Source of the DNA: Scilla litardierei | Taxonomy: Eukaryota; Streptophyta; Magnoliopsida; Asparagales; Asparagaceae | Assembly (NCBI GenBank): GCA_030789695.1 | Contig: CM061141.1 | Location: forward strand, 195,869,689 to 195,933,688 | Length of the DNA: 64,000 nucleotides | Direction: 5' to 3' | Shown: positions 18,126 to 53,015 of the stretch, piece after piece | Layout of the letters: every line of letters starts with the position of its first letter | Numbering within the stretch: position 1 is the first letter of the stretch | Notes under the pieces: model-generated | Told to the model about the DNA's origin: nothing | The model's database searches: none | The model's input: the letters and a program-made list of their open reading frames with translations, nothing else | Position numbers and translations under genes: made by a program

Positions 18126-18171
18126 TTGCTTCTTTGCTTCTTTCTTCCTATGTTGCAAAACACAGTTATGT

Positions 18172-19700: not shown

Positions 19701-19897
19701 CCACCGGGGATGAGTGAGGAAGGGTTCTCGGATTCCACGTCCCTGCCCCCTGCGAGGCCTGACCGGGGCTCGTTGGGCCCTCCGGCCTGGGATGCGCGCC
19801 GAGCCGTCAAGGTTCTCCCCTGTCGATCGAGATGCGACCCAAGTACCGGTATTGGGGCTGTGTCCCTCCTTCTTCGGGACTGGCGGGGCAGCACCAT
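19701..19897 (-). pseudogene. gag: Start of a Tat-type gag, cut by the gap
   Basis: On the minus strand an open frame begins MVLPRQSRRRRDTAP shortly after the primer site and runs into the gap. It is basic and GC-rich, like the N-terminal part of other Tat gags, but no domain can be confirmed in about 65 residues. Confidence 0.35.
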
Positions 19898-19930
19898 TGC
19901 TGGTGTGGTTGCACTGTGTGGGTGTTAGCT

Positions 19931-19950
19931 CGTTCCCACAGACGGCGCCA
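19931..19950 (-). other. Primer-binding site of a Tat-type element
   Basis: The minus strand reads TGGCGCCGTCTGTGGGAACG, identical over 20 bases to the site at 29510-29529 of the other Tat element. It lies two bases inside the LTR end at 19953. Confidence 0.8.
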
Positions 19951-19952
19951 GA

Positions 19953-20434
19953 TGTTTACGGGTGTTTTCTCACCACTGGATCGTTGACCGGCGCTTAGAC
20001 GGTCAACGCGGTCAATATATCGATTGGAATCCCTTGGTCCTACCGAGCGTTGGGGTTCTCAACAAGGGTAGCGCGAGGTCCCGCTTCAGCACGGAAAACG
20101 GCTCGCTTGGCGGGTCGAGGACGAACGGGCTCTTTGTCCGTAGTGTTGGGCCTCGGTCAGCGGGGTGCGGAGGGGTAGCGTCGGCACCTAAGTGAGCGCT
20201 CGCCCTCGGTCAATCAAGTGCCGAGGGGAAGCCTTGGCGCCCTGATTATCACTTAGACTTAGTTGATGGTGATGTTCATTAGTGACGAACGGACTCGCTG
20301 TTGTGCGAGCCTTGCTTTGGTGAGTTCCGCACTGAGGGGCCTCGTAGGTTGGGCCAAACTCCTTTTGTGGGCCTCTCGCCTCTGGTTTGGGCTCGGGCCG
20401 CTGGCTTTTGGGCCTCTCCAAAGTGGTCGTATCA
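19953..20434 (-). repeat. 5' LTR of a Tat-type element inserted in the GT gene
   Basis: On the minus strand it starts TGATACGACCACTTTGG at 20434 and ends CACCCGTAAACA at 19953, 482 bp. Both termini match the solo LTR at 42247-43198, so they are one family with an internal length difference. It sits directly against glycosyltransferase-like coding sequence at 20435. The internal region and the other LTR would lie in the gap. Confidence 0.82.
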
Positions 20435-21010
20435 TACGTGATTTGGGAACTTGCACAGGATTTGCTTCGAGTCCTCGGTGAACTTTTCTCCCACGCAAGC
20501 ATAGAATTCTCGTCAGTGTTTGGGCAGCTCCCCAGCTGCAAGGGAGCTGGTGAAGGTAAGGGGTATTGGGGTGGATCCGTGGATGTGCTTGAAGAACTCG
20601 GTTGCAGTCCATTTAGGTCTCTCCTTAACGACTTCACCCAGTTATGGGTTGTAAAGAGAGATTGATGAAAGCTCGGGGAGAGAGACTTGGGGTCATTGTA
20701 GTATGCCATGAGTGCATACTTGATCCATAGGTAGTAGTAGGGAGATACTTCGATGTCATCTTCCAAGAAGATGCCGAAGTCATCATCAGATGAAGGATTC
20801 CAGCTCTCGCTAACTCCTCGGATCAGACCACCTTGAACTATTCTCCTTCTTATGAATTTGTGCCCATGTGTCCAGTTAAATGATTCAACAACCTTCAGAG
20901 TCTCCTCATCGACCTTTCTGTCAATATTGAAGCTTAGAGGGATCTCGTCTCCAATGTAGTACGCATTCTGAAGGGACTGGCGGAGTCTCCGGAGGGAAGA
21001 AGCACGGTTT
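20435..21010 (-). pseudogene. Glycosyltransferase-like gene, N-terminal/central part
   Basis: The minus strand encodes a stretch with VVESFNWTHGHKFIRRR, then FGIFLEDDIEVSPYYYLWI (an acidic EDD of the kind that binds a nucleotide-sugar metal in GT-A folds), then HPNTPYLHQLPCSWGA and NPVQVPKSR. I recognise this as a plant glycosyltransferase family-2-like protein (Arabidopsis At5g60700 type, from memory). It is broken: frames change several times after the EDD block, a stop lies near the LTNP/TTHN region, and a TGA stands where PKHW would be expected. A Tat LTR interrupts it at 20434. The C-terminal part lies at 42201-43646 on the other strand. The protein would act in the Golgi or ER lumen if intact. 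Confidence 0.7.
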
Positions 21011-21059
21011 TGTGTGATGATGTTGACTTAGATCGTCATCCGATTCCAGTCTGCGATTC

Positions 21060-21516
21060 ATAAAATGAAGGGGTTGACATCCATATCTGTAGTCTTTATT
21101 ACATTGCCTATTGATTCCGATGAACCCTGCAGCCGGAATCAGGTCGTGCAGCTGGAAGTTGGGCGATGAGGAGCTCGCCAAGCCAGTCGAACAAGACGAC
21201 GGAAACGGTAGCAAGACAAAAACGACAGCGGAAAGGGAAGATGAGCAAGACGACGAGGATTTGGACTTCTTGGACTTTCGACACGCGCCGTTGACGGGGT
21301 CATGCGGAGGGCACCGCCATTGGTCCAGTACCGACGGCAGGTCCTACAGAAGTGGCGGGGCTGAGATAGTGAGTAGTTGTTGTAGTAGCAGAACTTGTTG
21401 TTGGAGGAGTCGCATCGCGTGCAACTGATCACCTGCTCCGGTGACTGCATCATCGCCACTGCCACCGCTGCGGTAGATGCAGAAGGAGAAGTGTTTTTGG
21501 AGTTACCTGTCATCAT
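21060..21516 (-). pseudogene. Dof zinc-finger fragment, frameshifted
   Basis: Dof proteins are plant transcription factors that bind AAAG sites through one C-x2-C-x21-C-x2-C finger. The finger is complete here (CTRCDSSN ... [11 protein letters not shown], about 21300-21429) and preceded by a short Ser/Ala-rich leader starting [10 protein letters not shown] at 21516. Directly after GGALR the frame breaks near 21300: one base is missing, and the basic tail ([12 protein letters not shown]) continues in another frame. The usual Val-Pro-Val-Gly-Gly-Gly linker is also altered. The start codon lies only 13 bases inside the duplicated 330-bp segment. Downstream it merges with the glycosyltransferase-like sequence without a normal gene end. 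Confidence 0.78.
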
Positions 21517-21528
21517 GATGATGAGCAA

Positions 21529-21858
21529 GATTGAAAGAGAGGAGAGAAGGAGAAAGAGGTAGTTTAGGTTTCTTGAGGGAGATTGAAGAAGGGTGTAACC
21601 ATTGAATGGGATCATATTCATGCATAGTCTGGAGCACTGTTTGGTGACGAGGGTTAGCTCAGCAGCAAGCTGTCGCAGGATGGGGTCCACACTCGATTTC
21701 CTTTCTGGCGAATTGATGAGCGGGCCCACCCCTCTGCTTCACGTGGAATGCACAGTGGCTCGTTCTCTCTACCTTCTTGTCAATCCCGCAATTCGACGTT
21801 TCGGTCCATTGCTTTCCGTGTCTACACCGTTGACTGGCCGGTGTATGTAGCACGCCTC
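21529..21858. repeat. 330-bp segment, copy 1 (probable terminal inverted repeat)
   Basis: Matches 44203-44538 along its length with small indels. Shared landmarks are TAGTTTAGGTTTCTTGAGGG, TGGGATCATATTCATGCAT, GGCGAATTGA and GACTGGCCGGTGTA. In the window both copies read in the same direction. Similarity stops sharply after CACGCCTC at 21858, where ATGAAAAA follows. The inner end is next to the Dof start codon. Confidence 0.85.
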
Positions 21859-21954
21859 ATGAAAAAATGCTGGGGTTTTCTGTAGTTACTTGGCACGAGC
21901 CCTACACGTGTATATGATTAAATAAGGATAAACTCGGCGTACTCCGCATCACAA

Positions 21955-22180
21955 GTGACGGGAATTTTTTTTTGTTTATCGGAAAGGATCAACCGGGCCC
22001 CAAGACCGGCTGCCAGCCCGAAGCAAGAGCCTGGGGGGCCACTACAAGTCTACACTAGCCATATTATGGGTATAATTACACAAAGGGGTAAGGGGTTTCG
22101 AACCCGGGACCTCACACCTGAGGTCTCGGGTTCTCACCCGGGTGCCAATGCGCCAAAAGCGCTCGGCGGTGACGGGAATT
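21955..22180 (-). mobile_element. tRNA-derived SINE with 12-bp target duplications
   Basis: The body is 21967-22168 (202 bp), flanked by GTGACGGGAATT at 21955-21966 and 22169-22180. The minus strand holds an RNA polymerase III box A (TGGCGCATTGG, 22145-22155) and box B (GGTTCGAAACC, 22094-22104) with tRNA-like spacing, and ends in a short A-run (T-run on the plus strand). It encodes nothing and would depend on a LINE for mobility. Confidence 0.88.
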
Positions 22181-23245
22181 CAAATTAGAGTTTTCGAACA
22201 AAGAACGAACGTGAGCAATTATGTACGTGTGTGTAGCAACTCCCTTCAAAATATTGATCCCTTTCGGAGTGGCTGAGTGTGAAGTGTGTTCCTCTTCATC
22301 CGAGAGGCAAGGGATCCAGCAACGATGGCTATCTCGCTTAATTCCCTCGACTCACATGGTATGCGGGGTGGGTCAGCCTTGCATACCACTGGTTTGGCGT
22401 CTTGTCGCCCCACTAGTGCGGCGGTGCGGGAGTTCGGGTCATTAAAAAATCGCTATGCGCACATACTGTTTTACTCCTGTGCACAATCGAGATTCTGTTT
22501 ATTTACAAGTTTGCCACTCAGAATTACTCACAGCGAACAACCTTTAGAAAACGACAAAAATACGGGGTAACAAAAGGCCTTGGTCAAACTCGAATGTGCC
22601 GATTAGCCCATACGGGGCTAACCACAGTGCCAACTAGTTCATACGGGACTAACGTTTTAATGAAGTTTTTCATTGGGCTCTACTCTTTGAAGATTAGCCA
22701 TAGTGCTCTACTTCATGCGAGATTAGCCATGTCATTGTGCTCTACTCTACGGAGATTAGCCAATGTACTTGTGATGTTGTGCTCTACTCTACGGAGATTA
22801 GCCAACATGCTTTCAAATTTTTTTTGAAAAAGATGTTTTTCAAATAGGTTATGTCCCGTCCTTAATCGGGATAGCGCAATTTATAATTCCAAGTCATACC
22901 ACGATCCGGCCATGGTTATCTAACCCATGGGTGTGTAGAACAGGTCTCGTGGCTTGGCAATTGTTGCGCTAAAATTCTTTGCGCTAACTCTCACCTATTC
23001 TATTTTGAAAGATATGTTTTTCAAAAGTATTTTTCCGCTGCTGGTACCATACGGGTATCATTTCTGATTTCTTTTTACTTGAGATAAGTAAGAGGGATGC
23101 TTTGAAAGTTACTTCTAGATGGTAGTTGGGAACGTAGTGAACTTCTCGATTCTAGAGTAACATTTCAACGCATCCAAGGAACTTATCAAGTGTTTAAAGA
23201 ATCGAAACTTTATGCATAGAATTTTGATCGTGTTTTTCATTTTCT
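22181..23245. other. Leader region of the copia element, with short repeats
   Basis: From 22590 to 22810 a loose repeat containing GATTAGCC and CTCTACTC recurs about four times. No sequence similar to the LTR at 28429-29032 and no methionine-tRNA primer site was found, so the 5' LTR of the copia element is missing or too diverged to see. Confidence 0.45.
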
Positions 23246-25465
23246 TTGCAGTTTTTTGAATCGAATATGTCTACCGCTTCTAAAAACATAGTCGCAGAGC
23301 TTAACAAAGGTGAAAAGCTCAACGGCGACAATTATAAACTTTGGTCAATAAAAATCCAATATGTTTTGGAGGAGCAAGATGTGCTCGAAACACTCCAAAA
23401 CATAATGGAAGAACCTGAGTTGGGCAATACGGCCCAACACAAGAGGGACCGGGAAGCTTATGACACTTGGACTCGAAAGAACAAAATAGCATGTATTACG
23501 TTACTGTCCGCCATGGACAATGACATAATGCGTCTATTTCGGGAATTCGACCTAGCCAAAGACATATGGTCTGAGCTAGAGATAAAGTTTGGTGGAACTT
23601 CGGTTACCAAACTCCGCTCCTTAAATATTCAATTTGATTCGTACAAGATGCGGCGAGATCATTCTATGAAAAAGCATCTCCGCCACATGGCGAATCTCAT
23701 ATCTGAATTAAAGGATGCGGGTGTTACGCTGTCTGACGAACAGCAGATCCAAGCAGTCATTCGTTCACTCCCAGATAGCTGGGATAACATGAAAATGCAT
23801 CTCACTCATAATGAGTGCATTAAAACTTTAAGCGATGTATCGAAACACCTCGAACTCGAGGAAGAGCGGATTCAAGCCGCAAAACCAAGTGCAGAAGTGC
23901 ACGTGGCCGCTAGTTCCTCACATGGAGGAAATAAGCGGAAGAATAAACGCTTAAGGTTTGTGAACGAACGAAAGCAAGAACCGGAAACCTCAAAGAAGAC
24001 TAAGAACAAAAAGTGGCAAAAGAATGTGCACTCAAAGAAGAAAAACTTGAAGAAGATCAAGTGCTTTAAGTGCAACAAGTACGGTCACTTCGCCCGTAAG
24101 TGTACGGATGGAAGTGATAAGGTAACTTGTAGGGCTAGTTACATATGTGTTTCTAGTTCCATGTTTCTTGCTAAATCTAACTATTTTTGGTTGATTGATT
24201 CAGGGGCCACAGACCACGTAGCGAAGGACAGAAGGTTCTTCGTAGAGTATCGAAGGATAACTCAAGGAACAAAGTGGATATACGTCGGCAACAACACTCG
24301 TGTTGAAGTCAAATGCGTCGGAACATGCAAGCTAGTTCTCGACAACGGCCGGACTTTATTATTACACGACGTCCTCTTTGCTCCAGATATTAGAAGGAAT
24401 ATCGTTTCCGTGGTCATGTTAATGTCTTTAGATTATGAGTGGAGGTTCTATAAACAATATGTTGACCTAGTTTGTAATAATTCTTTGATTGGTTCTGGTA
24501 ATGTTTGTAATGGATTAATTGTTTTAAATACAATGTATGATGATTCTTCTTCCATTAATGAAGGTTTCCATTTGACAAATGCTTCTAACTCTGAATCTGA
24601 GATCATTTGTTGGCATGCAAGACTTGGTCATATTGGACCAACTAGAATGGATAGACTTGCCAAAAGTGGCTTGCTATCTAATGTTTCAAAAGTTGAAATG
24701 TCAACTTGCGAACATTGTCTTGTAGGGAAAACTTGTCGCAAGCCGTTTGGAACTGGCACAAGGGCCGAAGTTCCATTACAGCTTATCCATTCGGACATTT
24801 GCGGTCCAATGAATATTAAGACAAGACACGGGAAGTCCTATTTCATCACATTCATTGATGATTTCACCCGTTTCGGACATATCTATTTGATATCCCACAA
24901 AAGTGAAGCTTTGGCTTGCTTTAAAAACTATATGAGTTTAGTGGAGAATCAATTAGATCGCAAGCTTAAGGTTTTGCGAACCGATAGGGGTGGTGAATAT
25001 CAATCAATAAGTTTTAAGGAACTTTGTGATGAAAAAGGCATAGTTCATCAAATAACTATGCCTTATACTCCGCAACAAAACGGTGTTGCGGAAAGAAGAA
25101 ATAGGACATTAATGGAAATGGTCCGATCAATGATGTCTCAGGCAAATTTGCCTATCACCTTTTGGGGTGACGCATTATTGACGGCAGCTTTCATCTTAAA
25201 CCGTGTACCCTCGAAGTCGGTAAGTTCTACTCCTTATGAGTTGTGGAACAATAGAACTCCAGACTTAAACATTCTAAAACCTTGGGGTTGTGCCTCTTAT
25301 GCACATTTGTCCTCTCACAAATATGGCAAACTTGGGCCACGTGGGAGGAAGTGTATCTTCATCAGATACGCTGAAAACTCCAAGGGATATGTTTTCGTCG
25401 GTCAAGAGGACAATGGGGGGTCTTATAGAATTCGAATCGAGGGATGTTGTCTTCTTGAAAAATGA
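23246..25465 (+). pseudogene. Copia gag-protease-integrase
   Basis: A 739-residue open frame. Gag opens with LNGDNYKLWSIKIQYVL. A CCHC knuckle (CFKCNKYGHFARKC) starts at residue 273. The protease active site (LIDSGATDHV) has its Asp at residue 318. The zinc-binding part of integrase (WHARLGHIG ... CEHC) is followed by catalytic motifs HSDICGP, RTDRGGEY and NGVAERRN. The start could also be the Met of MSTASKNIV, seven codons in. A run of six G at 25415-25420 shifts the frame, so the conserved ESRDVVFL continuation is read from the next frame. One extra G explains it; it may be real or a sequencing error. Confidence 0.9.
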
Positions 25466-27371
25466 GTTTCCAAGACAGGGTGAGATAAGTCAAGACTTAT
25501 CCTTGTTTGAGACTTGGGATCAAGAAGGATCGGAACGTTCGAGTGGGAGAATTCTTGGTGAAGAAGAAAATACGTTTCAAACTTCACCAATGGATGATAC
25601 GAACGATACCAATCCTATTCCGAGTGGGAGTGATATTATTCCAAGTAGGATTCCGAGTGGGAGTGATATTATTCCAAGTGGGAGTGATGTCATTCCAAGT
25701 GGGAGTGATCAAACTCAAACAAAACGTAGTAATCGAATGAGGCTAACACCTCTGAGATTTGAGGATGAATTTCCTCAAACATTCATAACATTACTACAAG
25801 ATGATGACGAACCTGCAAATTTCAAACAGGCCGTCACATGCCCTGCTAAAGATAAATGGATAGCGGCTATGGAAGAAGAACTTCAATCCATGAAAACAAA
25901 CCAAGTCTGGGACTTGGTTGATTTACCTAAGGGACGTAGAGCCATTGGGAACAAGTGGGTTCTCAAAATCAAGCATAAGGCTGATGGCTCCATCGAGAAA
26001 TATAAAGCTCGCCTTGTTGCGAAAGGTTTCACGCAACAGGAAGGAATAGACTACGAAGAGACTTTCTCTCCTGTCGTGCGTTTTACCTCCATTCGCTTAA
26101 TTCTGGCAATGGTGGCTTGTTTGGACCTCGAGTTACATCAGATGGATGTAAAGACTGCTTTTCTTAACGGAGAACTAGATGAGGAGATCTACATGGAACA
26201 ACCAAACGGGTTCGTACAAGAAGAAAACAAACATAAGGTTTGTAAACTTCGTAAATCCATATATGGTCTTAAACAATCCTCAAGGCAGTGGTAGATGCGC
26301 TTTCAAGAAGTCGTTTTGTCGTATGGTTTCTCCATGCTCGACGAAGACAACTGCGTATATATTAAGAGGATTAAAAACAAGTATGTAATTATGTCTCTTT
26401 ATGTAGATGACATATTTATAGCCGGAAATGATAAGCGTCTTATCTTGGATATCAAAGCTTGGCTTTCATCCGTCTTTGAGATGAAAGACATGGGTGAAGC
26501 TGCATATATCCTTGGGGTTAAGATCTCAAGGAATCGTTCCAAGAAACTTCTTTCACTCTCTCAAGAGACATATATAAAGAAAGTTTTAGAACGATTTAAT
26601 ATGCAGGACTGCAAGCCAATTGATACTCCAATAAGCAAAGGCGAGGGTCTATGTTTGGAGATGTGTCCCAAAGATCCAAAAGAAAAGAAAGCTATGGAAA
26701 AAGTTCCATACTCCAGTGCTGTCGGGAGTCTGATGTACGCCATGATGTGTACCAGACCGGACATTTGCTATGCTGTTGGTATGGTAAGCCGTTACCAATC
26801 CAACCGAGGACAAGCACACTGGAAAGCGGTAAAGAGGATATTAAGGTACCTCAAAGGGACTGCGGACTATGCGTTATGCTATCAAGGCAATACCTTGAGA
26901 CTCGAAGGCTATACCGATGCTGATTGGGCAGGTGATCTCGACGAGCGAAGATCTACCTCAGGCTTTGTTTTCTTACTCGGGAATGGTGCAATATCCTGGA
27001 GCAGCAAGAAACAAACCTGCATCGCTCTATCAACCATGGAAGCCGAGTTCGTAGCATTCAGCATGGCGGTCCAAGAAGCTGTTTGGCTTAGGAAATTCGT
27101 AGACAGGCTGACGAATGCCACTGACTCAAGCACTGTTCCTATATACAGTGATAGTCAAGCTTCGATTGCCTACGTCAAAGATCCTAAATTTCATTGTAAG
27201 ACCAAACACATTGACATTCGATTCAAGTTTGCGAAGGAATATGACAAACGGAAGGAAGTAGACATAGGATACATATCCACGCATGAGATGATAGCGGATC
27301 CCCTTACTAAGGCGATCCCCAGAAATGTGTTTTACAAACACTTATCATCTATGGGAATGCGTAGGTGCTGA
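25421..27371 (+). pseudogene. Copia reverse transcriptase and RNase H
   Basis: Continues the same pol. A PSGSD repeat linker precedes the transcriptase, which shows NKWVLKIK, ARLVAKGFTQQEG, MDVKTAFLNG, YGLKQSSRQW and the catalytic YVDDIFIAG. A TAG at 26293-26295 follows SRQW where a Tyr codon is expected and is the only stop in the domain. RNase H has YTDADWAGD, STMEAEF and SDSQAS, and ends with the typical HEMIADPLTKAIP. Apart from the G-run shift and this stop, the polyprotein is intact, so the element is young. Lineage within copia is not assigned with confidence. Confidence 0.9.
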
Positions 27372-28428
27372 GCTGTATCTTGTAATATTTCCCATGTCTA
27401 TAGAAGATCAAAGTTTAATAAAAGAAAGAAGTTCTTTTATATATTGCATACAAGTTTCTTACAAATGATTTTATACATTTGTGTTTTAAGTCTCAGCTAT
27501 TTTATTGTGTGTATGTCGGACAGATTAAGGTTGGCTCTCTCACATGAGCAACCGCCTTATCTTATCAGAAGGATAAGATAGAGATGAGACTAGTTTAAAG
27601 TCAAAATCATTAGACAAATGATTTAGAGTCATGACTTAAACAAGATAGTCGAATTAAAGATCTGCATCATATGGATGCTTACAAAAGATCTGAGATCTAT
27701 ATCACAAGGATATCTGAAAGAGATCTCATAGGATTTTTTTAAATCCTATCTGTCTTATGCAGGATGAGAGTCCGTGAATATTTCACGAGTAGTAAGGGGA
27801 CTCAAAAGATAGGCACTGTGGTGTCTGATCTTTCATCCGTACAACATCATTAAGACATACTCTCCCTGGGAAAGGAGTGATGTTGTAATACGTGTTCATA
27901 CCACGTATGCATTTCGACCACTGAGTTAGTAGCAATAGTGTTTGCTATTATGTGAGACTCAAAGGCCATACGGGTCTTAACTCTTACCCTCAAGGACTCC
28001 AATTGGTTCCTTTAGATTTGACGAGATGATCGCTATCTTAGCGTGTTGCTAATGGGCTATGGTAATTCGGCTCGGCGGGGCACGTTAGAAAAGCGAATCA
28101 AGTCAAGATCAGAAGGTTCGCAAGAAGAGGAAGATTGATTTCATATTCGCATTTGGACTTTAATGATTCAAAGCTGGCCAGCCAATTGTAATCCAGATGG
28201 GATTCAATTGTTGAATATAAAGTATAAGAAATGTGAAGAAATAATCTAGGGTAAAGCATGCGTTGAACTACTCAACTTTGCACCTTCGAGGTCGTTGTGT
28301 ATCTCTAACAAGTGCACAACAACAGACTCTACGCGCATGACGGTCGCACGGTCTATTTCTCGGTATGATAGATGAAAGAACTAAGGGAAAGACGTTCTCT
28401 TACAATCCCCTCAAGTGTGAGTGGGAGA
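27372..28428 (+). other. 3' non-coding region of the copia element
   Basis: About 1 kb between the pol stop and the 3' LTR with no open frame of note. It ends in a purine-rich tract (GTGAGTGGGAGA, 28417-28428) that would prime plus-strand DNA synthesis. Confidence 0.6.
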
Positions 28429-29032
28429 TGTTGGATATGGAAGACGTTTGTACACCCTTGTGGGGGATGTACGAGGAAATACGGACCTCGAACGTCGCGT
28501 ACACGAAGTCGTGTACAAAGGGAATCTGTTCCCTTGCGGAGAGGATCTCTGGATGAGTGGGAAAGTCGCATTATATATGCATAAATGCATGCGACATATG
28601 GCTAATAAAGGGGGAATATCTTAAGCTTATGTTGTATCATGCATATGGTACAACTTAAGCTTATAATGTGCCATGTATCATGGTACACCTTAATTAAGTT
28701 GTTCCAAAGGAACAACTTACCCTAAAATAACTACCTTGGGGGCTATAAATAAGACCCAAGGGTAAGCCATTTCTTACACCTTTTGCATGAAATTCATGCA
28801 TGCATCTTCATCCTAGCGAAGCTCTGCAGAAATCCTTTCTCTTCCTCTATCCAAGTTCTTAATCTAAAATAGAGATTTAGATTGTGGATTAGTAGCCTTA
28901 CTCCGTTCGTGAGAAGACTCGATCCGTCGTGGCGAATCCGAAGAAAAAGTTCCGAGACTACCGTTCCGCATACGCAAGCGTAAGTCTCAACTTTAATTAT
29001 CGATCCTAACTCTGTTTTGGCAGGATCCTACA
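28429..29032 (+). repeat. 3' LTR of the copia element
   Basis: Begins TGTTGGATATGG right after the polypurine tract and ends near ATCCTACA at 29032, about 604 bp. A TATA box (CTATAAATAAG) lies near 28742. No matching LTR was found upstream of 23246. It abuts the partial Tat LTR. Confidence 0.65.
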
Positions 29033-29686: not shown

Positions 29687-31236
29687 GTGCAGCAGAGCTT
29701 CGAGGCCTTCGCCAAGATAATGGCGGGTTTCACAACGACTAGAGCCGAGGTACCCCGGGCCCCTATGAGCCCCGAACGTGAGGCGGAATCTTCACCCTCA
29801 GTTCGTCGAAGAAATGGGGGACAAAGGGCTCGCCGAGTAGATTGCGGCCCAACAGAAACTCTTGGAGGAAGAAATGGAGATCGCGTGGCTGCGAAGGCGC
29901 CAGGAGGAAGCGACGGCCGCACAGAGGCATCTGGACGAAGCGGCCGAATCCGCCCGACAAATCCTCATCGACGAAGAGACCGCCCGATGCCAGCTCCGCT
30001 TCATTATCGCAGAACGTGAAAGGCTCCGGAGGGAGAATGAGGAGAACCGGGAGATCCCGGAGGCATCGGCGACGGGCCGGTGACACATGAACGAGCGCAG
30101 CCCGCCGCTCGCCAAGTCCCCACCACAGGGACAAAGTCCGCCCCGTCGGCATCTCTCCCCAGATCGTCTGGACAAGGAAGTCGTTCGTCAACAACTCCGC
30201 TTCCTTGCCGCAGAGGGCGAAAGGCTCCTAAGGGAGAATCAGGAGCGGAGAGAGATCCCGGAGGCGACGGCTGTAGGTCGACGACACTAGAATGACCGTA
30301 GCCCGTCGCCCGTCGAGTCCCCATCACGAGGAAGGAGTCCTCCTCGGCGACCGCTTCGCAATTCCCCGGGGCATGATGACCGGCGGCAGCCGAGGCGGGA
30401 CAGGAGGGAAACCCCGGAGTGGCGGAGAGGACGCGCGCCAGAACGCCCCGCCTACCCCGAGGAGGCCACGCCGTTGGCACGGTGGATCACGTCAGCCCCA
30501 AGACCCGTAATGTTCAAGGTCCCCCATCTGGCCACCTACGGCGGGAGAGGCGACCCCCTCTCGCACGTACAACAGTACCGGGGGGGCGATAGAGGCGTAG
30601 GATGTGGATGACGCGTTCCTGTGCCGACTTTTCTTGTAGAGCCTGCGGGATACGACGCTGGAGTGGTACTATGGCTTGCCGGCGAGATCCATTGGGAGCT
30701 TCGGCGAACTATCCCACAAGTTCTGCCAAGAGTTCCAGGCTGGGCGCGTAAAGAAGAAGCCCTTGGACTACCTCAGCACGATAGTCCAAGGGGAAGGAGA
30801 GAGAACTGGAAAGTACCTGCACCGCTTTCAGGACGAAAGACGGGCGGTGGTGGCCTGCGGTGATGAAGTGCTCATGCTGGCCTTCAAGATGGGACTGCAG
30901 AATTGGAGCCTCCATAAATCCCTGCTCCGAGACCCGCCCGCCGACTACGACGCGCTGATCGCTCAGGTGGAGAGGTACGCGCTGAGTGAGGAAACTCTCG
31001 GCGGGAAGAAACTGGCCGCCCCGGCGAAGCTGCCCCAGGGCGATCCGCGGTCTTATCCAAGGCCGAGGCAAGAAGACGGACCCCCGACTCAGGCCAGGCG
31101 CGACCCAGGGGGCCGTCGTCCGCAAGATCGCCCAGGGCCAGTGCGAGAGTTCGCCCCACCCGGGAGCCTGCCCAAGCGATCCCAAGGCTGGAGGGACCCC
31201 TGCAGGCCCACTACAAGCAGCTTAACACCCCCATGA
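29687..31236 (+). pseudogene. gag: Tat-type gag, several frames
   Basis: Starts MQQSFEAFAKIMAGF, then frameshifts. A charged coiled-coil segment (29862-30083), two Arg/Pro/Ser-rich segments up to 30510, the PVMFKVPHLATYGG opening of the Tat gag core and the rest of the core (30676-31236, with FGELSHKFCQEF) are all present but separated by stops and shifts. The order is the same in the inverted copy at 1221-2812. Confidence 0.82.
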
Positions 31237-32240
31237 TAGAGGTGTTGGCCGCAGCGACGACGGCTGGACTGTTGCCGGAGCCGCCCAGGGAGATGAGATC
31301 GGACCCGGCGCGGCGAGATCTCCGGAAATATTGTCGATATCACCGGGACCACTGCCATGACACCGACGACTGCTTCACCCTCAAGAGGGAGATCGAGCGG
31401 CTGATCCAGGCGGGTCACCGCAGGGGTTTCGTCGAGGGCAGAAGACTCGTACGAGAGGATAGAACCCCGCGAAGGGCGCAAAGAGCAGATCCGCCCCCAC
31501 GTGACGAGCGAGAGGAGCCCCGCCAGCCAAAGCCGGTCATGCGCATAGATGTGATATGCGGTGGACCGTCCTCTGGAGGAGCGTCATCGCCAAGTAGGAA
31601 GGCATATGCCCGACATGTGATGGCGACGGGCCTCGGCAGCGAGGCGAAGCGGAGAAGAGTGACGCGGCCCCTCATCACCTTTACCGACGAGGACCTGGAA
31701 GGAGTCGAGCTTCCGCACGATGACGCCATCGTCATCGAAGCTCAGATCGGGACGGCCATCATCAGCCGGCTCCTGATCGACACAGGCAGCTCTTGCGATA
31801 TCATGTTTATGTCGACGGTTGAGAAGATGGGGTTGAAGCAGGTAGACCTGAGGCCTTGCACGAGGCCCATCGTCGGTTTCACTGGTCACTCGGTCCCCAT
31901 TGTGGGGGTGATCACCTTGCCGGTGTCACTTAGGGAGGAACCGATGGTCGTCACTCGCATGACACAATTCGTTGTCGTCGACATTGCGTCGGCATACAAC
32001 GGGATCATTGAGCGGCCATACATGACGGCCATTGAAGCGCTCCCCAGCCTTCTCCACCAGATGGTGAAATTCCAAACTCCGCGAGGGGTGGGGCTAGTGC
32101 GGGGAAACCAGAAGCTGTCCCGAAGCTGCTACATGGGGTCGACCAAGCACAAGGGCCCGGAGCAGGCTTTGTCGGTCGACCTCCTTGACGAAAAGGAGGA
32201 ATTTTGTGACCAGCGGCCAACGCCCGCTGAGGAAGTCTAG
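31233..32240 (+). pseudogene. Tat gag tail and aspartic protease
   Basis: A 335-residue open frame. The N-terminal part is the Cys/His-rich gag tail (KYCRYHRDHCHDTDDC). The protease follows with LLIDTGSSCDI (Asp about residue 183), GFTGHS and RMTQFVVVDIA. It ends at a stop where the linker to reverse transcriptase should continue, and two further frame changes lie between 32240 and 32500. It shares the four-base overlap of start and stop with the preceding frame. Confidence 0.85.
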
Positions 32241-32409
32241 GTGGTGCCCGTGACTGAGGAGGAGTGAAAGTTTGTCTCCATCGGTACGAAGCTTCCGGCT
32301 TCTCTGAGGGCGGCCCTCATCAGCCTCCTCCGAGAGAACGTGGACATATTTGTCTGGTCGCCCGAGGACATGCCAGGGGTCGATCCAACGGTAATCTCCC
32401 ACAAGTTGA

Positions 32410-34275
32410 ATGCGGACCCGGGGTCTTGACCGTCCGGCAGAAGAAGAGGAGCACCGGAGGAGAGAAGAAGAGGGCAGCCAGGAAGAAGTGGAGCGGCTTC
32501 TCCAGGCCAAATTTAGCAGGCCGGTGGACTATCCGGACTGGCTCGCCAATGTCGCCTTGGTGAAAAAGGGCAGTGGGAAGTGGCGCATGTGCGTCGACTT
32601 CACCGACCTCAACAAGGTGTGTCCGAAGGACAGCTTCCCCCTCCCAAGGATCGACCACTTGGTCGACCAGGCGTCCGGTTACGAATTGTTGAGCTTCATG
32701 GACGCCTTCTCGGGCTATAACCAGATCCCGATGGCAAAGGAGGACGAGGAGAAAATGTCCTTCATCACCGATATCGGCACCTTCTGTTACACGAAGATGC
32801 CCTTCGGGTTGAAGAACGCCGGGGCGACCTACCAACGGATGGTGGACCGAATATTCAGCTCGCAAGTAGGGCGGAACCTGGAGGTATACATCGACGACAT
32901 GCTGGGGAAGAGCAAGAGAGCTCCAGACCACCTCGCCGACTTGCGGGAGACATTCCAGAAAGTGCGCCAGTATGGCTTGAGGCTGAACTCGGCGAAGTGC
33001 GTCTTCAGCGTGCAGTCGGGGAAATTCCTTGGCTTCATGATAACGAAGCGGGGGATCGAGGCGAACCCCGACAAGGTATCGGCCCTTGTTAACATGGCGG
33101 AGCCGCGCACCATCCTTGATTTGCAGCGACTGAACGGCCGGATCGCAGCATTTGGGAGATTCTTGTCGAAATCGACAGAGAGGTCGCTCCCTTTCTTCAG
33201 AGTCCTGCGCACGGCCCTCGGTGAAGCAAAGATCAACAGGAAGGTGATCCCCTGGGACGACGACTGCGTTCGGGCATTTGCAGAGCTGAGGACTTACTTG
33301 CAGAGCCCTCCTCTGCTCGCCAAGCCGGAAGAAGGGGAACAACTGGGGTTGTACCTGGCTAGTAATGAAGAAGTCGTCAGCTCCATCTTGATCAAAGAGG
33401 AGAACGGAGTTCAGCGGACAGTATACTATGCGAGCCGGATTCTCCGAGAGGCGGAGACTCGCTACAGCCCCATCGAGAAGGCCGCCTACTGTCTGATCAC
33501 AACGGCGAGGAAGCTCTGGCCATACTTCCAGGCCCATCCCATCGCCGTCCACACCGACCTGCCCCTCGAGAAGAACTTGATGAGGTTGGAACGATCGGGC
33601 AGGATGCTCAACTGGAGTGTCGAGCTCAGCGAGTTTGACATAACATACAAGGCTCGGACGACGATCAAGGGCCAGGCGCTGGCAGACTTCCTGGTGGAAT
33701 GTACTATCGAAGACCCCCGGAGAACCTGCCGAACATACCACCAGTGGCTCCACCCCCGCAAGCAATGGAGGTGGGTGAACCCCCCCCCCCCCCCCGAGCC
33801 CGCACGAGGAGACGCGGGCAAACTATGGATCGTTCACATCGATGGCTCGGCAACAGGATCTGGGACGGGGGCAGGTATCGTCATCCATACCCCCGACGTA
33901 TGCCTGCTGGAGTACGCCCTGCGCTTCAACTTTCCGGCCACCACCAACGTCGCGGAGTATGAGGCCACGGTCAATGGGCTAAATCTTTGTAGAGCGGTGG
34001 GGGCGATGAACGTGCTGCTGCTTAGTGATTCACGACTCGTTGTCCAACAGATCCAAGGGAGCTTCGAGGCTCGAGAAGAGACGATGAAGCGCTACCTCAA
34101 GCGCATCCAGGCCGAGCTCCAGAAGTTCGAGACGACAGAGGTCCAACACTTACCCTGCACTAACAACCTCCGGGCAGACGCCCTATCCAAACTGGCCTCC
34201 TCCTCTGCGGCTGAAATCGGAAAGGCCATCTACGTCGAGAGTCTGCAAGCCCCACCATTGAAGAAGAAGAACTAA
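32410..34275 (+). CDS. Tat reverse transcriptase, RNase H and second RNase H
   Basis: A 621-residue open frame. Reverse transcriptase runs from about residue 36 (PDWLANVALVKK, DLNKVCPKDSFPLPRID, MPFGLKNAGATYQ), with the catalytic YIDD at residues 160-163. The usual Val after YIDDML is Gly here. The first RNase H follows (EKAAYCLITTARKL, ALADFLVE). A linker with five Pro from a 15-C run (33781-33795) leads to a second, archaeal-type RNase H beginning near residue 473 (HIDGSATGSGTGAGI, YEATVNGL, LLSDSRLVVQQ). This double arrangement is known from the Tat lineage of Ty3/gypsy. The domain is intact, but its connection to gag and integrase is broken. Confidence 0.9.
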   Translation: MRTRGLDRPAEEEEHRRREEEGSQEEVERLLQAKFSRPVDYPDWLANVALVKKGSGKWRMCVDFTDLNKVCPKDSFPLPRIDHLVDQASGYELLSFMDAFSGYNQIPMAKEDEEKMSFITDIGTFCYTKMPFGLKNAGATYQRMVDRIFSSQVGRNLEVYIDDMLGKSKRAPDHLADLRETFQKVRQYGLRLNSAKCVFSVQSGKFLGFMITKRGIEANPDKVSALVNMAEPRTILDLQRLNGRIAAFGRFLSKSTERSLPFFRVLRTALGEAKINRKVIPWDDDCVRAFAELRTYLQSPPLLAKPEEGEQLGLYLASNEEVVSSILIKEENGVQRTVYYASRILREAETRYSPIEKAAYCLITTARKLWPYFQAHPIAVHTDLPLEKNLMRLERSGRMLNWSVELSEFDITYKARTTIKGQALADFLVECTIEDPRRTCRTYHQWLHPRKQWRWVNPPPPPEPARGDAGKLWIVHIDGSATGSGTGAGIVIHTPDVCLLEYALRFNFPATTNVAEYEATVNGLNLCRAVGAMNVLLLSDSRLVVQQIQGSFEAREETMKRYLKRIQAELQKFETTEVQHLPCTNNLRADALSKLASSSAAEIGKAIYVESLQAPPLKKKN

Positions 34276-35529: not shown

Positions 35530-35611
35530 TTGTGAGTCTTCTTAATAAAATATCTTCTTTTCCGCACATTTCCAAACTTTGCTGTCTCCACTTGAGTATT
35601 CCAGTTCGAGC

Positions 35612-37020
35612 GCACAAGACTCTGGGGCAGGGCCAACCCTCGCCACCCAAACCAGAGAAGGGCACGGGCCGGGCTACACGCTCGCTCCCCCCTCAAGAAC
35701 TCTGGGGCAGGGCCAACCCTCGCCACCCAAACCAGAGAAGGGCACGGGCCGAGCTACGCGCTCGCTCCCACCCTCAAGAACTCTGGGGCAGGGCCAACCC
35801 TCGCCAACCAAACCAGAGAGGGCACGGGCCGAGCTACGCGCTCGCTCCCCCCTCAAGAACTCTGGGGAAGGGCCAACCCTCGCCACCCAAACCAGAGAAG
35901 GGCACAGGCCGGGCTACGCGCTCCCTTCCCCCCTCAAGAACTCTGGGGCAGGGCCAACCCTCGCATCCCAAACCAGAGAAGGGCACGGGCCGGGCTACGC
36001 GCTCGCTCCCCCTCAAGAACTCTTGGGCAGGGCCAACCCTCGCCTCCCAAACCAGAGAAGGGCACGGGCTGGGCTACGCGCTCGCTCCCCCTCAAGAACT
36101 TTGGGGCTGGGCCAACACTCGCCACCCAAACCAGAGAAGGGCATGGGCAGAGCTACGTGCTCGCTCCCCCCTCAAGAACTCTGGGGCAGGGCCAACCCTC
36201 GCCACCCAAACCAGAGAAGGGCACGGGCCGACCTACGCGCTCGCTCCCCCCTCAAGAACTCTGGGGCAGGGCCAACCCTCGCCACCCAAACTAGAGAAGG
36301 GCACGGGCGGGGCTACGTGCTCGCTCCCCCCTCAAGAACTCTGGGGCAGGGCCAACCCTCGCCACCCAAATCAGAGAAGGGCACGGGCCGACCTACGCGC
36401 TCGCTCCCCCCTCAAGAACTCTGGGGCAGGGCCAACCCTCGCCACCCAAACCAGAGAAGGGCACGGGTGGGGCTACGCGCTCGCTCCCCCCTCAAGAACT
36501 CTGGGGCAGGGCCAACCCTCGCCACCCAAACTAGAGAAGGGCATGGGCCGGGCTACGCGCTCGCTCCCCCCTCAAGAACTCTGGGGCAGGGCCAACCCTC
36601 GTCACCCAAACCAGAGAAGGGCACGGGCCGGGCTACGCGCTCGCTCCCCCTCAAGAACTCTGGGGCAGGGCCAACCCTCGCCACCCAAACCAGAGAAGGG
36701 CACGGGCCGGGCTCCGCGTTCGCTCCCCCTCAAGAACTCTGGGGCAGGGCCAACCCTCGCCTCCCAAACCAGAGAAGGGTACGGGCCGGGCTACGCGCTC
36801 GCTCCCCCCTCAAGAACTCTGGGGCATGGCCAACCCTCGCCGCCCAAACCAGAGAAGGGCACGGGCCGAGCTACGCATTCGCTCCCCCCTCAAGAACTCT
36901 GGGGCAGGGACAACCCTCACCGCCCAAACCAGAGAAGGGCACGAGTCGAGCTATGCGCTCGCTCGCTCCCCCCTCAAGAACTCTGGGGCAGGGACAACCC
37001 TCGCCACCCAAACCAGAGAG
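35612..37020 (+). repeat. Minisatellite, about 18 units of 79-84 bp
   Basis: The unit contains CAAGAACTCTGGGGCAGGGC, CACCCAAACCAGAGAAGG and GGGCTACGCGCTCGCTCCCC. Unit starts at TCTGGGG were traced at 35621, 35701, 35782, 35861, 35942, 36021, 36100, 36180, then every 80 bp to 36580, then 36659, 36738, 36818, 36898 and 36982. It lies between the integrase end and where the 3' LTR should be, the hypervariable 3' region of Tat-type elements. Long open frames here arise because the unit lacks stops in the frames used. They are not genes. Confidence 0.95.
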
Positions 37021-37091: not shown

Positions 37092-37983
37092 GACTTCACA
37101 GAGTCCCTGTGAGTATCGTGTCGGACAGAGACACGAGGTTCACATCTCAGTTCTGGCAGAGTTTGCAGAAGAGTTTGGGTACGCGTCTGAGTTTCAGCAC
37201 GGCGTACCATCCGCAGACGGATGGCCAGTCCGAGAGGATGATTCAGATTTTGGAGGACATGCTGAGGGCGTGCATGTTGGATTTCAAGGGTTCGTGGGAG
37301 GACCATCTACATCTGGTGGAGTTTTCTTACAACAATAGCTTCCAGGCGAGTATTGGCATGGCGCCTTTTGCCGCGCTGTATGGGAGGAAATGTCGATCGC
37401 CATTGAGTTGGGATGACGTTGGTGATCGGGAGCTGTTGGGACCTGATATGATTGTGGAGGCCGTGGATGTTGTCAGGAACATTCGGGAGAGGTTAAGGAT
37501 TGCTCAGGACCATTTTAAGCATTGGGCGATGCTAAACGCCGTCCTTTGGAGTTTCAGCTGGGCGACCATGCGTTCTTGAAGATTTCCCCGAATCATGGTG
37601 TGATTCGCTTTGTGAAGCGAAGGAAGTTGAGCCAGCGATACTTTGGACCGTTTGACATTCGGAAGAAAGTTGGCGAGGTAGCCTACCGCCTAGCCTTGCC
37701 GCCATCTTTGGAGGGAGTTCACAATGTTTTCCAAGTGTCGCAGCTTCGTCGATACATTAGCGACCCATCTCGTGCTGTGGATTTCTCGGAGATTACCGTT
37801 CGCCCTGATATGACGTATGACCAGCAGCCAGTGCAGATTCTGGACAGGCGTCAGAAGTCACTTCGAAACAAGGTTGTCAATCTTGTGAGGGTGATGTGGC
37901 GACACGGCTCGCCCGGAGAGTCTACTTGGGAGAATGAGGATGAGATGCGAGAGCGTTTCCCACTTTTGTTTCCGGACACGTGA
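37076..37983 (+). pseudogene. Tekay-like integrase C-part with chromodomain
   Basis: Begins inside the integrase core ([27 protein letters not shown] with the catalytic Glu, [15 protein letters not shown]). A frameshift near 37525-37575 moves the remainder to the second frame ([18 protein letters not shown]). The last about 60 residues are a chromodomain (VQILDRRQKSLRNK, VMWRHGSPGESTWENED) that would direct insertion to marked chromatin. Everything upstream of the core is missing. Confidence 0.9.
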
Positions 37984-38029
37984 GTGTTGGGAAATTCCGA
38001 GGACGGAATTTTTCTTAAGTTGGGGAGGA

Positions 38030-40441
38030 TGTAACGGTTGGTTTTCATGTTTCTAGATTATTTATATTATATATATGTTTTGGTGGATTTTCTCCTTATG
38101 CGTGGTTTTCGTCTCCGTAGCTTTCACTTTCGATCGTTTCGTCGTGATTTTCTAGCTTCTTCCTTAGAATCGTTGGTCTTGGAGTAAGTCATTCATGACG
38201 GGCTTCATATCGATCATATCTTGTTGTTAGATCAAGCCTAGGAGTCTTAGGAATCGATCCCGGAGCTTCGCGCTCCATTTCGGAACTTTCTGTGCACGTT
38301 AGCCGGTACAAGAAGGGGAACCGATCGACTAGATGACGATTTAATCGGTCGGCAAACCTTCATGGACCGACTAGTGGGCTTTGTTAATTGTACAGGAGTT
38401 ACTGTTTATCGATAGTCGGTCTAAGAACATTTGTCGACCGACTAGGTTGCAAACTAGTTGGTCAGCAATCGTTCTTTAACCGACTAGCTCTATGATCATT
38501 TTGATACCAAGTACTATTCATTCTTAGTTGGTCTAAGAACGTTCGTCGACCGACTAGATGAGAAACTAGTCGGTCAATAGTTGTTCTTTGACTGACTAGA
38601 TCTAAATCCTATTTTTCATCAGGAGTTACTGTTTACACTTAGTCGGTCTGCGTTGGTCAAGCGACCGACTAGTTCCCAAACTAGTCGGTCAGAGGTTGCT
38701 CTTTGACCGACTAATCAGTGTCGAAACCCTAATTTCTGGGCCGCCGCCAGCTCTTCCTATTTAAAACCCCAAACTTTTTTCTTTTCTTCTTTCATTTCTC
38801 CTGAGCCTCTTTCTTCCCCAAATCATCATCCAACTAACCCTAGCCCTCCTCCTTCATCAAGAGCCCCTCTCCCTCTCCATTTTGGCCGGTCACCACCTCT
38901 AGGTCACCGGAAAACTCCCAAAACCCCATTTCTCCAGATTTTCTCCCCATTTCCAGATCTAAACCGTAGGTTCCCCGGATCGTTTCTTCCGTCGTCGTGC
39001 TTGCGGCATCGTTCTTCCGCTAACGATTCGGTAATAACTCGATTCTATAATATTCTCATAACCCATTTGTGTTTTTTTAAAACCCTAATAAAACTAGGTT
39101 GGATGTTGTTCTAATAATGTTTTGCCATGGCAGCGATCTCATCTCCGTAGTTAGCATTTGTGTGACGGCCTCGTTGATCGTCATCCTCGGTGCTAGGCAA
39201 GTGAAACTTGCCACTTAGGGTTTTGGGCCATGTCTTAGGCCATTTGCTTGTTGTAAGCGTAAAAGAGACTAGGCGACGAAATGAAACTCGCCTAGGCGCA
39301 ATTTCAGGAACTAGCTTGACAACGAAGTTAGATCCGTCATTTATCATGTTGCATAACTACCATGTCATGTTTAATTTTAATTAACGGTACGCGAATTAAT
39401 TGTCATCCATGATATCCATGTTGAATGTCGCATTCGTAGCAAACGCTACAATACTTGTGTTTCCTGGCTCATGTTCCAGAAGCGGGCCACGTGAGTTGGT
39501 TGATAGCCAATGCCCGATCTACTTGTTTCCGACTAGGCACCTGCGTTGCAGGCATAACCCTACGCCATACGTGTTAAATACACTTCCTGGCTCGTGATCC
39601 AGAAGCGAGCATTCCGTGTTCGGGGTAATGCCCTGGATCGATACACGTGGAGGGGTAGGGATAAGCGGTCACCTGAGCTTACGAGTCGGCCCGATCAGCC
39701 ACTCTAGCCAGCAGACGAAATCTCTGTGCACAACTTGTTTCCTTGACGTGTTTACTTGACGTGATCACTTGACGTGAACCACTTGACTTGTACTTGTCCG
39801 TGTTTTACTTGTAAAACTTGTTATCCATCTCACACTTGCTACTTGTACTTCCCTTTACTTGTCACTTCCATACTATACTTGCCATGTCATGCATCATACT
39901 ATAACTGCTAGGTTGTTAGTTTACATTACTTTCAGTTTCCTTGCCCAAGTCTTTTAGACTTGCTGACATGTGCCCATTTACTCTTTTGGGTGACACATGT
40001 TAGATCCTGAGCCTGAGTTCATTGTTGAGGACGAGGTGTTTGTGGACGCCGAGCCCGAGCCTGTGTTTGACGAGGACTTCGTCGACACGGGCGATCAGTC
40101 GTAGAGACTGTTTGTGTTGTTGTTCAGACTGTTTTGTTGTCGGTGCGTGGCACCAATACTCTGTTTATGTTTGTCTTTGTTTGGTCTTGTTCTGGGCCTT
40201 TAGACTCTTTCTTTTAGCCTGGTGGCTTTTCTGGATGTGGAACTTAATTTTAATGTTGGACCAACTCTGAGATTTGAGATTTTTTTGCTGCCTCTTTTTG
40301 TGTTATTATTGTTGTTCCGTTTGTGGTTACAGGGACCTGCTTATGTTTTATTGACGCTTATCGCGTTTGGGGCTTCACAGCTCCACTCTCATGCGGACCT
40401 TTTCACGTCTCGCCTCCATCTTAGGGAAGCGGGGCGTGACA
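38030..40441 (+). repeat. 3' LTR of the Tekay-like element
   Basis: Starts TGTAACGGTTGG after a polypurine tract (AAGTTGGGGAGGA) and ends GGGAAGCGGGGCGTGACA at 40441, 2,412 bp. The upstream part (38320-38720) carries about ten CTAGTCGGTC/GACCGACTAG motifs. A TATA-like TATTTAAAA lies near 38758, followed by a C/T-rich leader. The end type matches the Y element's LTR. Confidence 0.8.
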
Positions 40442-41700
40442 GATATCAATAGTATTATTACAATCGCATTCATCTCAAAAATAGATTACAACAATAAGGT
40501 AAGGAAGAGAGAGACCTTACGGCCCTTACAACATGGAAAACACAAATCTGATACAATGGAAATTACGAGGAGGAGGAGCCTAAGAGTACCCTCCCGGAAG
40601 AGTCATGCCTCTAGTGGATCCCGCTACGCTGGAACTAAGATCTGCCAAAATGCACTTAGAACCTGACGGATATTGCAAGAAAAAACACAAATACAATGCC
40701 AGTCAGTGAGGGTTACTCATGTAGGTTCCCAAGCATCAATCTCATTTAAATAATTAGAAGAATATAGTAGGGCAATAACCTTGTCTACTAACAGAATAAA
40801 AGCATGTGAGCATAGTAAGGTGTAGTGAGCATAGTAAGGTGTAATGCACAAGGTAAAGCGTAGTGAGCATGGCAATTACACATGAGCATGGCAAGTGTAG
40901 TGTGCAAAGTAGTGCGCATGGCAAGTGTAGTGTGCAAAGTAGTAAGCATGACCTTTGTAGTGTAGTAAACATAGCAAGGTGTAGTGTGCATAGCAAAACA
41001 TGATAAGAACTTAGCTTGTAGTTTATACAATTTATCATAGCAGCAGCAGAAGTAAAATGAGACTATCAATCAGTATTTAATCTAGTGACAAGCCCAATGC
41101 CAGAGGCGGAAGCGACTACAATTACACCCAAGCCAATGGGAGCTACCCGTGGCTTTATACTCACCGACTCGGCCAGGTGTCAGTCAAGTTCACCAATAGA
41201 GTGCAATTTAGCATTCCGATCTCTACTGTAGTGGACTACCACACCCAGAAGTGTCCATATGTGTATCCGTATAGTTCAATGTTTGTCCTGTGGCTAACAT
41301 TCCGTAAATGCCCCGCGGGCCCAATATCCGTAAATGCCTGAGGGCCCAATATCTAAAAATGCCCGAGGGCTCAACATCACATTCCATTTGGTCTTAATTT
41401 GTAATCCATTATTTAATATATGTCTTATTGTTCTCAATTAATGAGTACATAACAGTATGTGCATCAGAAAACCATATGTTCATCATGTTATCAAGAATCC
41501 ACAACAAAATACATTGCATTAAAAAGGAGTATAAGTCACTTAATATATTACTAATACCATTATACAATAATTCTAATGGCTTGAACATTACTAATACCAA
41601 CAAGAATTAATGAATTCACATGAGTAATGATGTATTAATATTGACTTTAAGAAAAAATTCCATAAAACTGTCACCAAGCCGATTATATCATATTTACATG
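40442..41700. other. Non-coding stretch up to the gap, possible LTR debris
   Basis: No genes were seen. Loose tandem repeats of about 20 bp (GTGTAGTGTGCATGGCAAG and variants) occupy 40801-41001. Three units of about 25 bp (TCCGTAAATGCC, GGGCCCAATA) lie at 41301-41376. The composition of 40442-40730 and 41080-41300 resembles minus-strand Tekay-like LTR sequence, but no terminus was found. Confidence 0.4.
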
Positions 41701-42200
41701 NNNNNNNNNNNNNNNNNNNNNNNNNNNNNNNNNNNNNNNNNNNNNNNNNNNNNNNNNNNNNNNNNNNNNNNNNNNNNNNNNNNNNNNNNNNNNNNNNNNN
41801 NNNNNNNNNNNNNNNNNNNNNNNNNNNNNNNNNNNNNNNNNNNNNNNNNNNNNNNNNNNNNNNNNNNNNNNNNNNNNNNNNNNNNNNNNNNNNNNNNNNN
41901 NNNNNNNNNNNNNNNNNNNNNNNNNNNNNNNNNNNNNNNNNNNNNNNNNNNNNNNNNNNNNNNNNNNNNNNNNNNNNNNNNNNNNNNNNNNNNNNNNNNN
42001 NNNNNNNNNNNNNNNNNNNNNNNNNNNNNNNNNNNNNNNNNNNNNNNNNNNNNNNNNNNNNNNNNNNNNNNNNNNNNNNNNNNNNNNNNNNNNNNNNNNN
42101 NNNNNNNNNNNNNNNNNNNNNNNNNNNNNNNNNNNNNNNNNNNNNNNNNNNNNNNNNNNNNNNNNNNNNNNNNNNNNNNNNNNNNNNNNNNNNNNNNNNN
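41701..42200. other. Assembly gap, 500 N
   Basis: Exactly 500 unknown bases, a placeholder. The right edge falls inside glycosyltransferase-like coding sequence. Confidence 0.99.
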
Positions 42201-43646
42201 GAAATTTCTGATTGACATGATATACTTGAGAGGGTATGTTAGTTTGTGATACGACTATTTTGGAGAAGCCCAAAGGCTAGAAGCCCAAGATCCAGCTGTG
42301 GACGAGAAGCCTGCTAGTAAGGTTGGGCCCTGCCAGACGAGGCCCACGAAGAAAACGCGGCCCGATCGATGAGGCCCCCGAGGAATCTCAAATCCGAACC
42401 GTCCACGATTCGACACGCTCGTAACCGGCCCACAATCCCCAGGAGAAACCACTCCCCCGGGGTGTACGGCCTTAATGTCCATTAAGGGGCCCCGTAATCG
42501 GCTCCCCCATGACGCTGGCAGGCGCCATCGTGGGGACGGATCTCGAGGGCGTGAGTGGGGGCGGACGGCGTGACGACGCGAACGGGGGGCAATCGTGGCA
42601 AAGATCTTATAAAAGGACCGGAGGGACAACGGAGCAAGGGATCGAACCCCAGGTATACTAGTCTGAGGTATTCCATCAACGACCTTGGTTTTCCTCCATT
42701 ACTTCTCCCTCCCCCTGCTCGTGTCGCGGGTCAGTGCATCGATCTCCTCTCGAGTCGAGCCTACCCCGCCGAGCACATTTCAGACCCTGATCTGACTTAG
42801 GCATCGGAGGGGATACGGCCGGAACCAAGGTCCGGCCACCCTAACGAGTTTTCTTGTCTATTTAGGAAGGAGCCGACCGAGGCGCCGAGGCTACCCCTCA
42901 GCGCCCGACGACCACCCACGCGGTTAGCGGGAGTGGCGACCAGAGACCGAGCTCCCAGCGAAGCGCCGATGCTACCCCTCATCGCCCATCCGTCCGAGGC
43001 CGAGCCCATCAAACAGAGCCGAGACCTCTCCTCAGCTCCGCTTCAGCCAAGGATCGACGCTCGACCTCGACTCCGTTTCCGACTGACGCTGAGTGCACGT
43101 GAGCTAGGCGTGACCAAGGGATCCCAACCATTCCCTTGACCACGTTGACCGATCAGCTGTCGGTCAACGATTCAATGGTGAGAAAACACCCGTAAACAGT
43201 TTGTATCCAAACTTTCCACTGCAAATGAGCTTTCCACAAATCACTTGGAGCCTGGTGCACACATCAATGCTAAGGACAATGTGGTGAAGCACGACAGGGC
43301 GGACTACGAAGTGCCATTGATGAAGGATGACTTCACCAGGTTGTTGCCGGGTGGAAAAAGAGAAGGACTCTATGCACCGAGACGTTCGGTGCATAGAGTT
43401 GACAAGCTTCTAAAAATGGGAACGAAGGGACACTGAGGTGAGATAAGATGATTTATAAATTCTTTTTTTTTCAAATTTGGAATTTATTCGCATCCATACA
43501 CCGAACTTTAGGTGTATATAGCAATACTCGTGGAAAAATACATTCGGCCTCAAAGTTACCAGTGCTAGCTAGACTTGTTCAATCAACCTACACCTTTAAA
43601 AGACCTGAAATCAACAGGGGCAAAGCTTGGACAAGATGTCATGTAG
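42201..43646 (+). pseudogene. Glycosyltransferase-like gene, C-terminal part
   Basis: Starts at the gap with KFLIDMIYLRGYVSL. A solo LTR (42247-43198) plus its duplicated GTTTG interrupts the frame. Skipping it, the frame continues YPNFPLQMSF. A one-base loss then shifts to the next frame, which reads TNHLEPGAHINAKDNVVKHD and VPLMKDDFTRLLPGG. An insert or intron of about 190 bp with hairpins follows. ASKLPVL and, after another shift, GAKLGQDVM with a stop at 43644-43646 look like the end. These pieces match the C-terminal half of the same family as 20435-21010, which ends in KSR. By my recollection of the family only about ten residues separate KSR from KFLID. Confidence 0.68.
42247..43198 (+). 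mobile_element. Solo Tat-type LTR with GTTTG target duplication
   Basis: Starts TGATACGACTATTTTGG and ends CACCCGTAAACA, 952 bp, flanked by GTTTG at 42242-42246 and 43199-43203. The termini match the 5' LTR at 19953-20434. ACTTAGGCATCGGAG occurs at 42797-42811, and ATAAAAGG near 42610 may be the promoter. No internal region remains. Confidence 0.93.

Positions 43647-53010: not shown

Positions 53011-53015
<5 letters not shown>

Follow-up and report, generated by a model that had tools for sequence, protein, structure and literature searches.

Features at the Locus

The window, that is, the whole stretch of 64,000 nucleotides from Scilla litardierei that was analysed, corresponds to C12:195869689-195933688 in its own genome. 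It contains a glycosyltransferase-like gene fragment, a Dof zinc-finger domain fragment, two LTR-retrotransposon remnants and two terminal inverted repeats, distributed over the second and third of the three contigs that are joined in the scaffold as follows:

14931-19200, plus strand: right end of contig 1, followed in a paralog by exactly 1,000 bp and then by reversed contig 2
19201-19700, no strand: gap 1, 500 N
19701-41700, minus strand: contig 2, exactly 22,000 bp, reversed with respect to gap-free paralogous segments
41701-42200, no strand: gap 2, 500 N

The preliminary description of this DNA had bounded contig 2 by 500-N gaps on both sides, as was found; the round length of the contig was absent from it. 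Over 30 kb to the left and to the right of it, no N run was found. As scaffolded, the window contains an inverted repeat (1-2903 and 29770-32675). The sequence just to its left, C12:195860470-195869688, matches contig 2 from 41555 to 32676 in reverse, and this repeat therefore becomes a direct one once contig 2 is turned. Elsewhere in the window about 3,075 bp are directly duplicated in tandem (50830-56985, 98.9% identity), and an array of a unit of about 80 bp (35579-37015), open in several frames, adjoins gypsy-type coding sequence.

The Divided Glycosyltransferase-Like Fragment

The gene fragment was located by tblastn with related proteins, the residue ranges being those of the relative P0002 placed on the window:

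20436-21039, minus strand: residues 1-202, in three frames (tblastn with relatives)
42202-42246, plus strand: residues 212-226 (tblastn with relatives)
about 43198-43358, plus strand: residues about 225-278, in two frames, the gene resuming at 43204 (tblastn)
43569-43715, plus strand: residues 288-335, the C terminus (tblastn with relatives)

As had been described, the coding sequence of contig 2 ends in PKSR on the minus strand (last base 20436) beside an LTR starting at 20434, and that of contig 3 opens with KFLIDMIYLRG on the plus strand after gap 2. The two halves had been taken for one gene parted by a retroelement and about 30 coding bases; this view stood, about 9 of the 335 residues being absent between the halves, and has to be supplemented by a solo LTR on contig 3 that had gone unmentioned. 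About 210 bp of other sequence lie between residues 278 and 288 on contig 3.

When proteins were searched with the fragment on contig 2, 38 relatives were obtained; five of the entries name an organism, in each case a plant. Residues 1-202 were placed on the minus strand of contig 2 and residues 212-335 on the plus strand of contig 3. Matches on both contigs were obtained for 8 of the 10 relatives (out of 38) whose mappings were viewed, including the named plant proteins P0021, P0023 and P0030, and P0004 and P0020 matched contig 2 only. The name "glycosyltransferase-like" is taken from a single source's label for P0018 and from the preliminary description. Neither the glycosyltransferase-like ORF nor P0023 was assigned with confidence to a Pfam family, and P0021 matched Glycos_transf_2 weakly (E 0.049); the precomputed Pfam number PF28143 is attached to 5 of the 38 relatives.

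Four genes on C9 of the same genome encode the full stretch of about 335 residues free of stops. In the closest intact one (L003), the points at which contig 2 breaks off and contig 3 opens are 25 bp apart in a single reading frame. These genes are likely to be relatives or parents of the captured fragment. All four copies, stop-free over the matched stretch, are found inside about 82 kb (C9:1519166-1601214).

Terminal Inverted Repeats, Target Duplication and Passengers

The fragment is accompanied by the following features:

21527-21858, minus strand: terminal inverted repeat, outer end 21858 (repeat comparison and alignment)
44196-44538, plus strand: terminal inverted repeat, outer end 44538 (repeat comparison and alignment)
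21859-21866: target-site duplication on the contig 2 side, ATGAAAAA on the plus strand (sequence; empty sites)
44539-44546: target-site duplication on the contig 3 side, TTTTTCAT (sequence; empty sites)
21283-21435, minus strand: Dof zinc-finger domain fragment, Pfam PF02701, E 5.8e-26, residues 102-152 of the ORF 21139-21738
19953-20434, minus strand: 5′ LTR, called Tat in the preliminary description, inserted after PKSR; its interior (19952-19701) enters gap 1
42247-43198, plus strand: solo LTR within the gene fragment, with the 5-bp duplication GTTTG at 42242-42246 and 43199-43203

The two terminal inverted repeats (332 and 343 bp) are 79.6% identical and lie on the same strand in the present order. 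Their similarity ends sharply at GAGGCGTGC, and the flanking 8-mers start right there. As previously claimed, these 8-mers are reverse complements of each other (ATGAAAAA and TTTTTCAT), and the agreement is exact. A chance match was rejected: the probability that two 8-mers drawn at random from the window are reverse complements is about 1/46,000, and it is about 1/1,700 if the draw is restricted to those with exactly one G/C. A reading of the repeats, in the present order, as the LTRs of one element was rejected on mismatch of the outside bases in a by-eye comparison.

Both LTR remnants show TG...CA ends and a 5-bp target duplication, GTTTG for the solo LTR and ACGTA for the other insert in its copy on C8, where the ACGTA behind the insert equals the bases preceding the LTR. 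Only 46 bases separate gap 2 from the solo LTR.

Copies of the Element on C8 and C4

A gap-free copy at C8:136506757-136512214 spans the element from terminal inverted repeat to terminal inverted repeat. It runs from contig 3 (44538 to 42201) through 991 bp into contig 2 (19701 to 21858) at about 98.5% identity, only window positions 44094-44132 being missing, and is flanked on each side by an 8-bp duplication of its own, TTAAGTTT. Within the 991 bp lie the coding bases that are missing, together with the rest of the LTR-retrotransposon remnant and the ACGTA duplication belonging to it. The flanks of the C8 copy (3 kb per side) gave no match to the window, and the copy is therefore a separate insertion. 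The halves in the window differ from it at 25 of 2158 (1.16%) and 29 of 2297 positions (1.26%), and divergence this nearly equal is as expected for the halves of one element.

In a more distant copy on C4 (82-93% identity in pieces) the halves show the same adjacency and the LTR inserts are lacking; no second inverted repeat turned up in the stretch retrieved. Two such distant copies, C4:251699244-251701236 and C4:251833281-251835271, are oppositely oriented, with about 132 kb between them, and have 2 kb of sequence in common at 98.5% identity. This pair may be a second case of a flipped piece, or else an inverted duplication that is real.

Empty Target Sites and Gap-Free Paralogous Segments

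A search with the contig 3 flank (44547-45340) gave 12 matches, from which the window's own and four others were examined, matches on C13 and small ones on C12 being set aside. The four comprise three more C12 sites at 99-100% identity and a fourth at 96% over 582 of the 794 bases. Natural empty sites were found in three of these four copies (L026, L027 and L028), each with a single TTTTTCAT, across which the reversed contig 2 flank (identity 99%, 99% and 86%) runs straight into the contig 3 flank; in the remaining copy, L025, the site is preceded by different DNA. The empty sites indicate that the two flanks were adjacent before the element arrived, and they fix the length of the duplication in the window at exactly 8 bp.

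The strongest evidence for the orientation of contig 2 was provided by two N-free paralogous segments on C12. In C12:195771579-195805295, contig 1 (14931 to 19200) is followed by exactly 1,000 bp and then by reversed contig 2 (41700 to 41550), an 8.65-kb insertion, contig 2 again from 41555 to 29885, a 2.8-kb insertion and 29887 to 29033, all reversed. The segment ends with 717 bp replacing window 22563-29032, reversed 22562 to 21859, and contig 3 from 44539 to 46840. In C12:195676560-195710353, contig 1 (17250 to 19200, with a 0.6-kb insertion) is likewise followed by exactly 1,000 bp and by reversed contig 2 (41700 to 41550). The next 15.4 kb have no listed match; they are followed by contig 2 from 39982 to 29033 and from 22562 onward, again reversed, and by contig 3 from 44539; contig 2 positions 41549-39983 are unmatched here. 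The order of contig 2 in the window is thus reversed with respect to both segments read, and the site of the element is empty in both. These reference segments are paralogs in the same assembly and not the other allele; they represent two of the four further units and carry insertions of their own.

Two further C12 copies of the right end of contig 2 near the window both lie on the strand opposite to that of the window's. This end falls in a repeat with 3,206 candidates, 40 of which were scored, those examined being the C12 neighbours and C1669. When the contig ends were compared with the window at low stringency, no bridge for the end of contig 1 was revealed.

One strand of C12 carries at least four copies of the stretch with ORF 45342-46085, which lies next to the insertion (195570123, 195708060, 195803002 and window 44547-46840). 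They are 95-138 kb apart at 99-100% identity and apparently form a tandem segmental array of recent date that is nested with LTR elements. No homolog of this ORF was found at E ≤ 0.001 among 359 candidates. Window 22563-29032 is a 6,470-bp stretch with copia-like ORFs between TATTT and TATTT, in which no LTR pair was found; the neighbouring unit has at the same site 717 bp without a window match (C12:195801582-195802298).

Orientation of Contig 2

The flipped order proposed in the preliminary description is displayed alike by the split gene, the C8 copy, the empty sites and the two gap-free C12 segments. Judged by the gap-free paralogs, the arrangement in the window is almost certainly a scaffolding artefact, and the true order would be contig 1, then reversed contig 2, then contig 3, with about 1 kb between neighbours. 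It is very improbable that the apparent inversion of some 22 kb reflects real biology, and the flip would cut one transposon in two.

A true inversion confined to this unit, spanning about 22 kb and with breakpoints inside both gaps, would accord with the present order of the scaffold, and the neighbouring units are paralogs from which one unit could differ. Against it, both breakpoints would have to fall on N gaps, contig 2 measures a whole number of kilobases, and both segments place the ends of contigs 1 and 2 at a distance of exactly 1,000 bp. Such round lengths have no biological reason and, together with the gaps at both breakpoints, they argue for an artefact, so that a true inversion is highly improbable. 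Still less credence is due to a rightly placed and oriented contig 2 whose repeat-bearing end, like that of contig 3, belongs to a different copy of one transposon family: the family is indeed multi-copy (near-identical on C8, more distant on C4), but two separate copies were rejected on the perfect 8-bp duplication across the ends, confirmed by the empty sites, the complementary gene parts with so few residues missing between them, the nearly equal divergence of the halves from C8 and the adjacency of the flanks in gap-free paralogs.

For the artefact, a cause within the assembly process can be proposed. Misjoin correctors of the 3D-DNA type cut at 1-kb bins and set 500-N gaps. The length of the middle piece and the exactly 1,000 bp missing in two paralogs make cuts at 1-kb bins look likely, and the 991 bp of the C8 copy could be 1,000 bp with small indels. 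In a region where near-identical segments and retrotransposons are nested, the misjoin correction of the Hi-C scaffolder would then have cut one original contig and dropped two slivers, each about 1 kb long, and the 22-kb middle piece would have been reinserted inverted between 500-N gaps. PMC11514472 describes debris that is excised and moved to the genome end. PMC7672694 gives an orientation error rate of 4.3% for 3D-DNA and notes that short contigs are hard to orient for Hi-C scaffolders, orientation errors being concentrated there; more such errors at lower contiguity are reported in PMC6719893. Contig 2 resembles a misoriented short Hi-C contig in being a short piece between fixed-length N gaps, reversed with respect to gap-free sequence. 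It differs in that both its length and that of one missing stretch come out at round kilobases, a pattern pointing to cuts made by the scaffolder itself and not to natural contig ends.

The apparent inversion, the inverted repeat 1-2903/29770-32675 and the split gene all arise from one flipped contig, and structural-variant or gene calling at this locus would be misled. A cheap screen for errors of this type suggests itself, directed at scaffold pieces of whole-kilobase length and at target duplications whose two copies agree only once a piece is flipped.

Nature of the Transposon

The real feature is a gene-carrying TIR transposon, recently moved and ordinary in kind. Once contig 2 is turned, it would consist of TIRs of about 340 bp within an 8-bp target duplication, the Dof fragment, and the glycosyltransferase-like fragment broken by two LTR-retrotransposon remnants. 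Neither of two ORFs of the element scanned against Pfam was transposase-like; the element thus appears to carry no transposase and was presumably mobilised by that of an autonomous relative. Entry after duplication of the segment is most likely, because two other units at 99% identity lack the element; excision from those units is the less likely course.

hAT elements have 8-bp target duplications and short inverted repeats. The element shares the length of the duplication, whereas its inverted repeats of about 340 bp are unlike the short ones of hAT. For MULEs, PMC3310237 gives target duplications of 9-11 bp and TIRs of 100-500 bp, a range that includes both TIRs of the element. Like a Pack-MULE, the element holds fragments of host genes (the Dof domain, and the glycosyltransferase-like sequence with intact relatives on C9). 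Unlike one, it has a target duplication of 8 bp, both in the window (TTTTTCAT) and on C8 (TTAAGTTT), the two copies in which this was read, and it also contains the two retrotransposon remnants. Since 8 bp falls outside 9-11 bp, the element was not filed as a MULE despite its fitting long TIRs. It may perhaps, though this is rather doubtful, represent a recently mobile plant TIR family with 8-bp duplications and TIRs of about 340 bp that is neither MULE nor hAT, with the Dof and glycosyltransferase-like fragments and two nested retrotransposon remnants as passengers.
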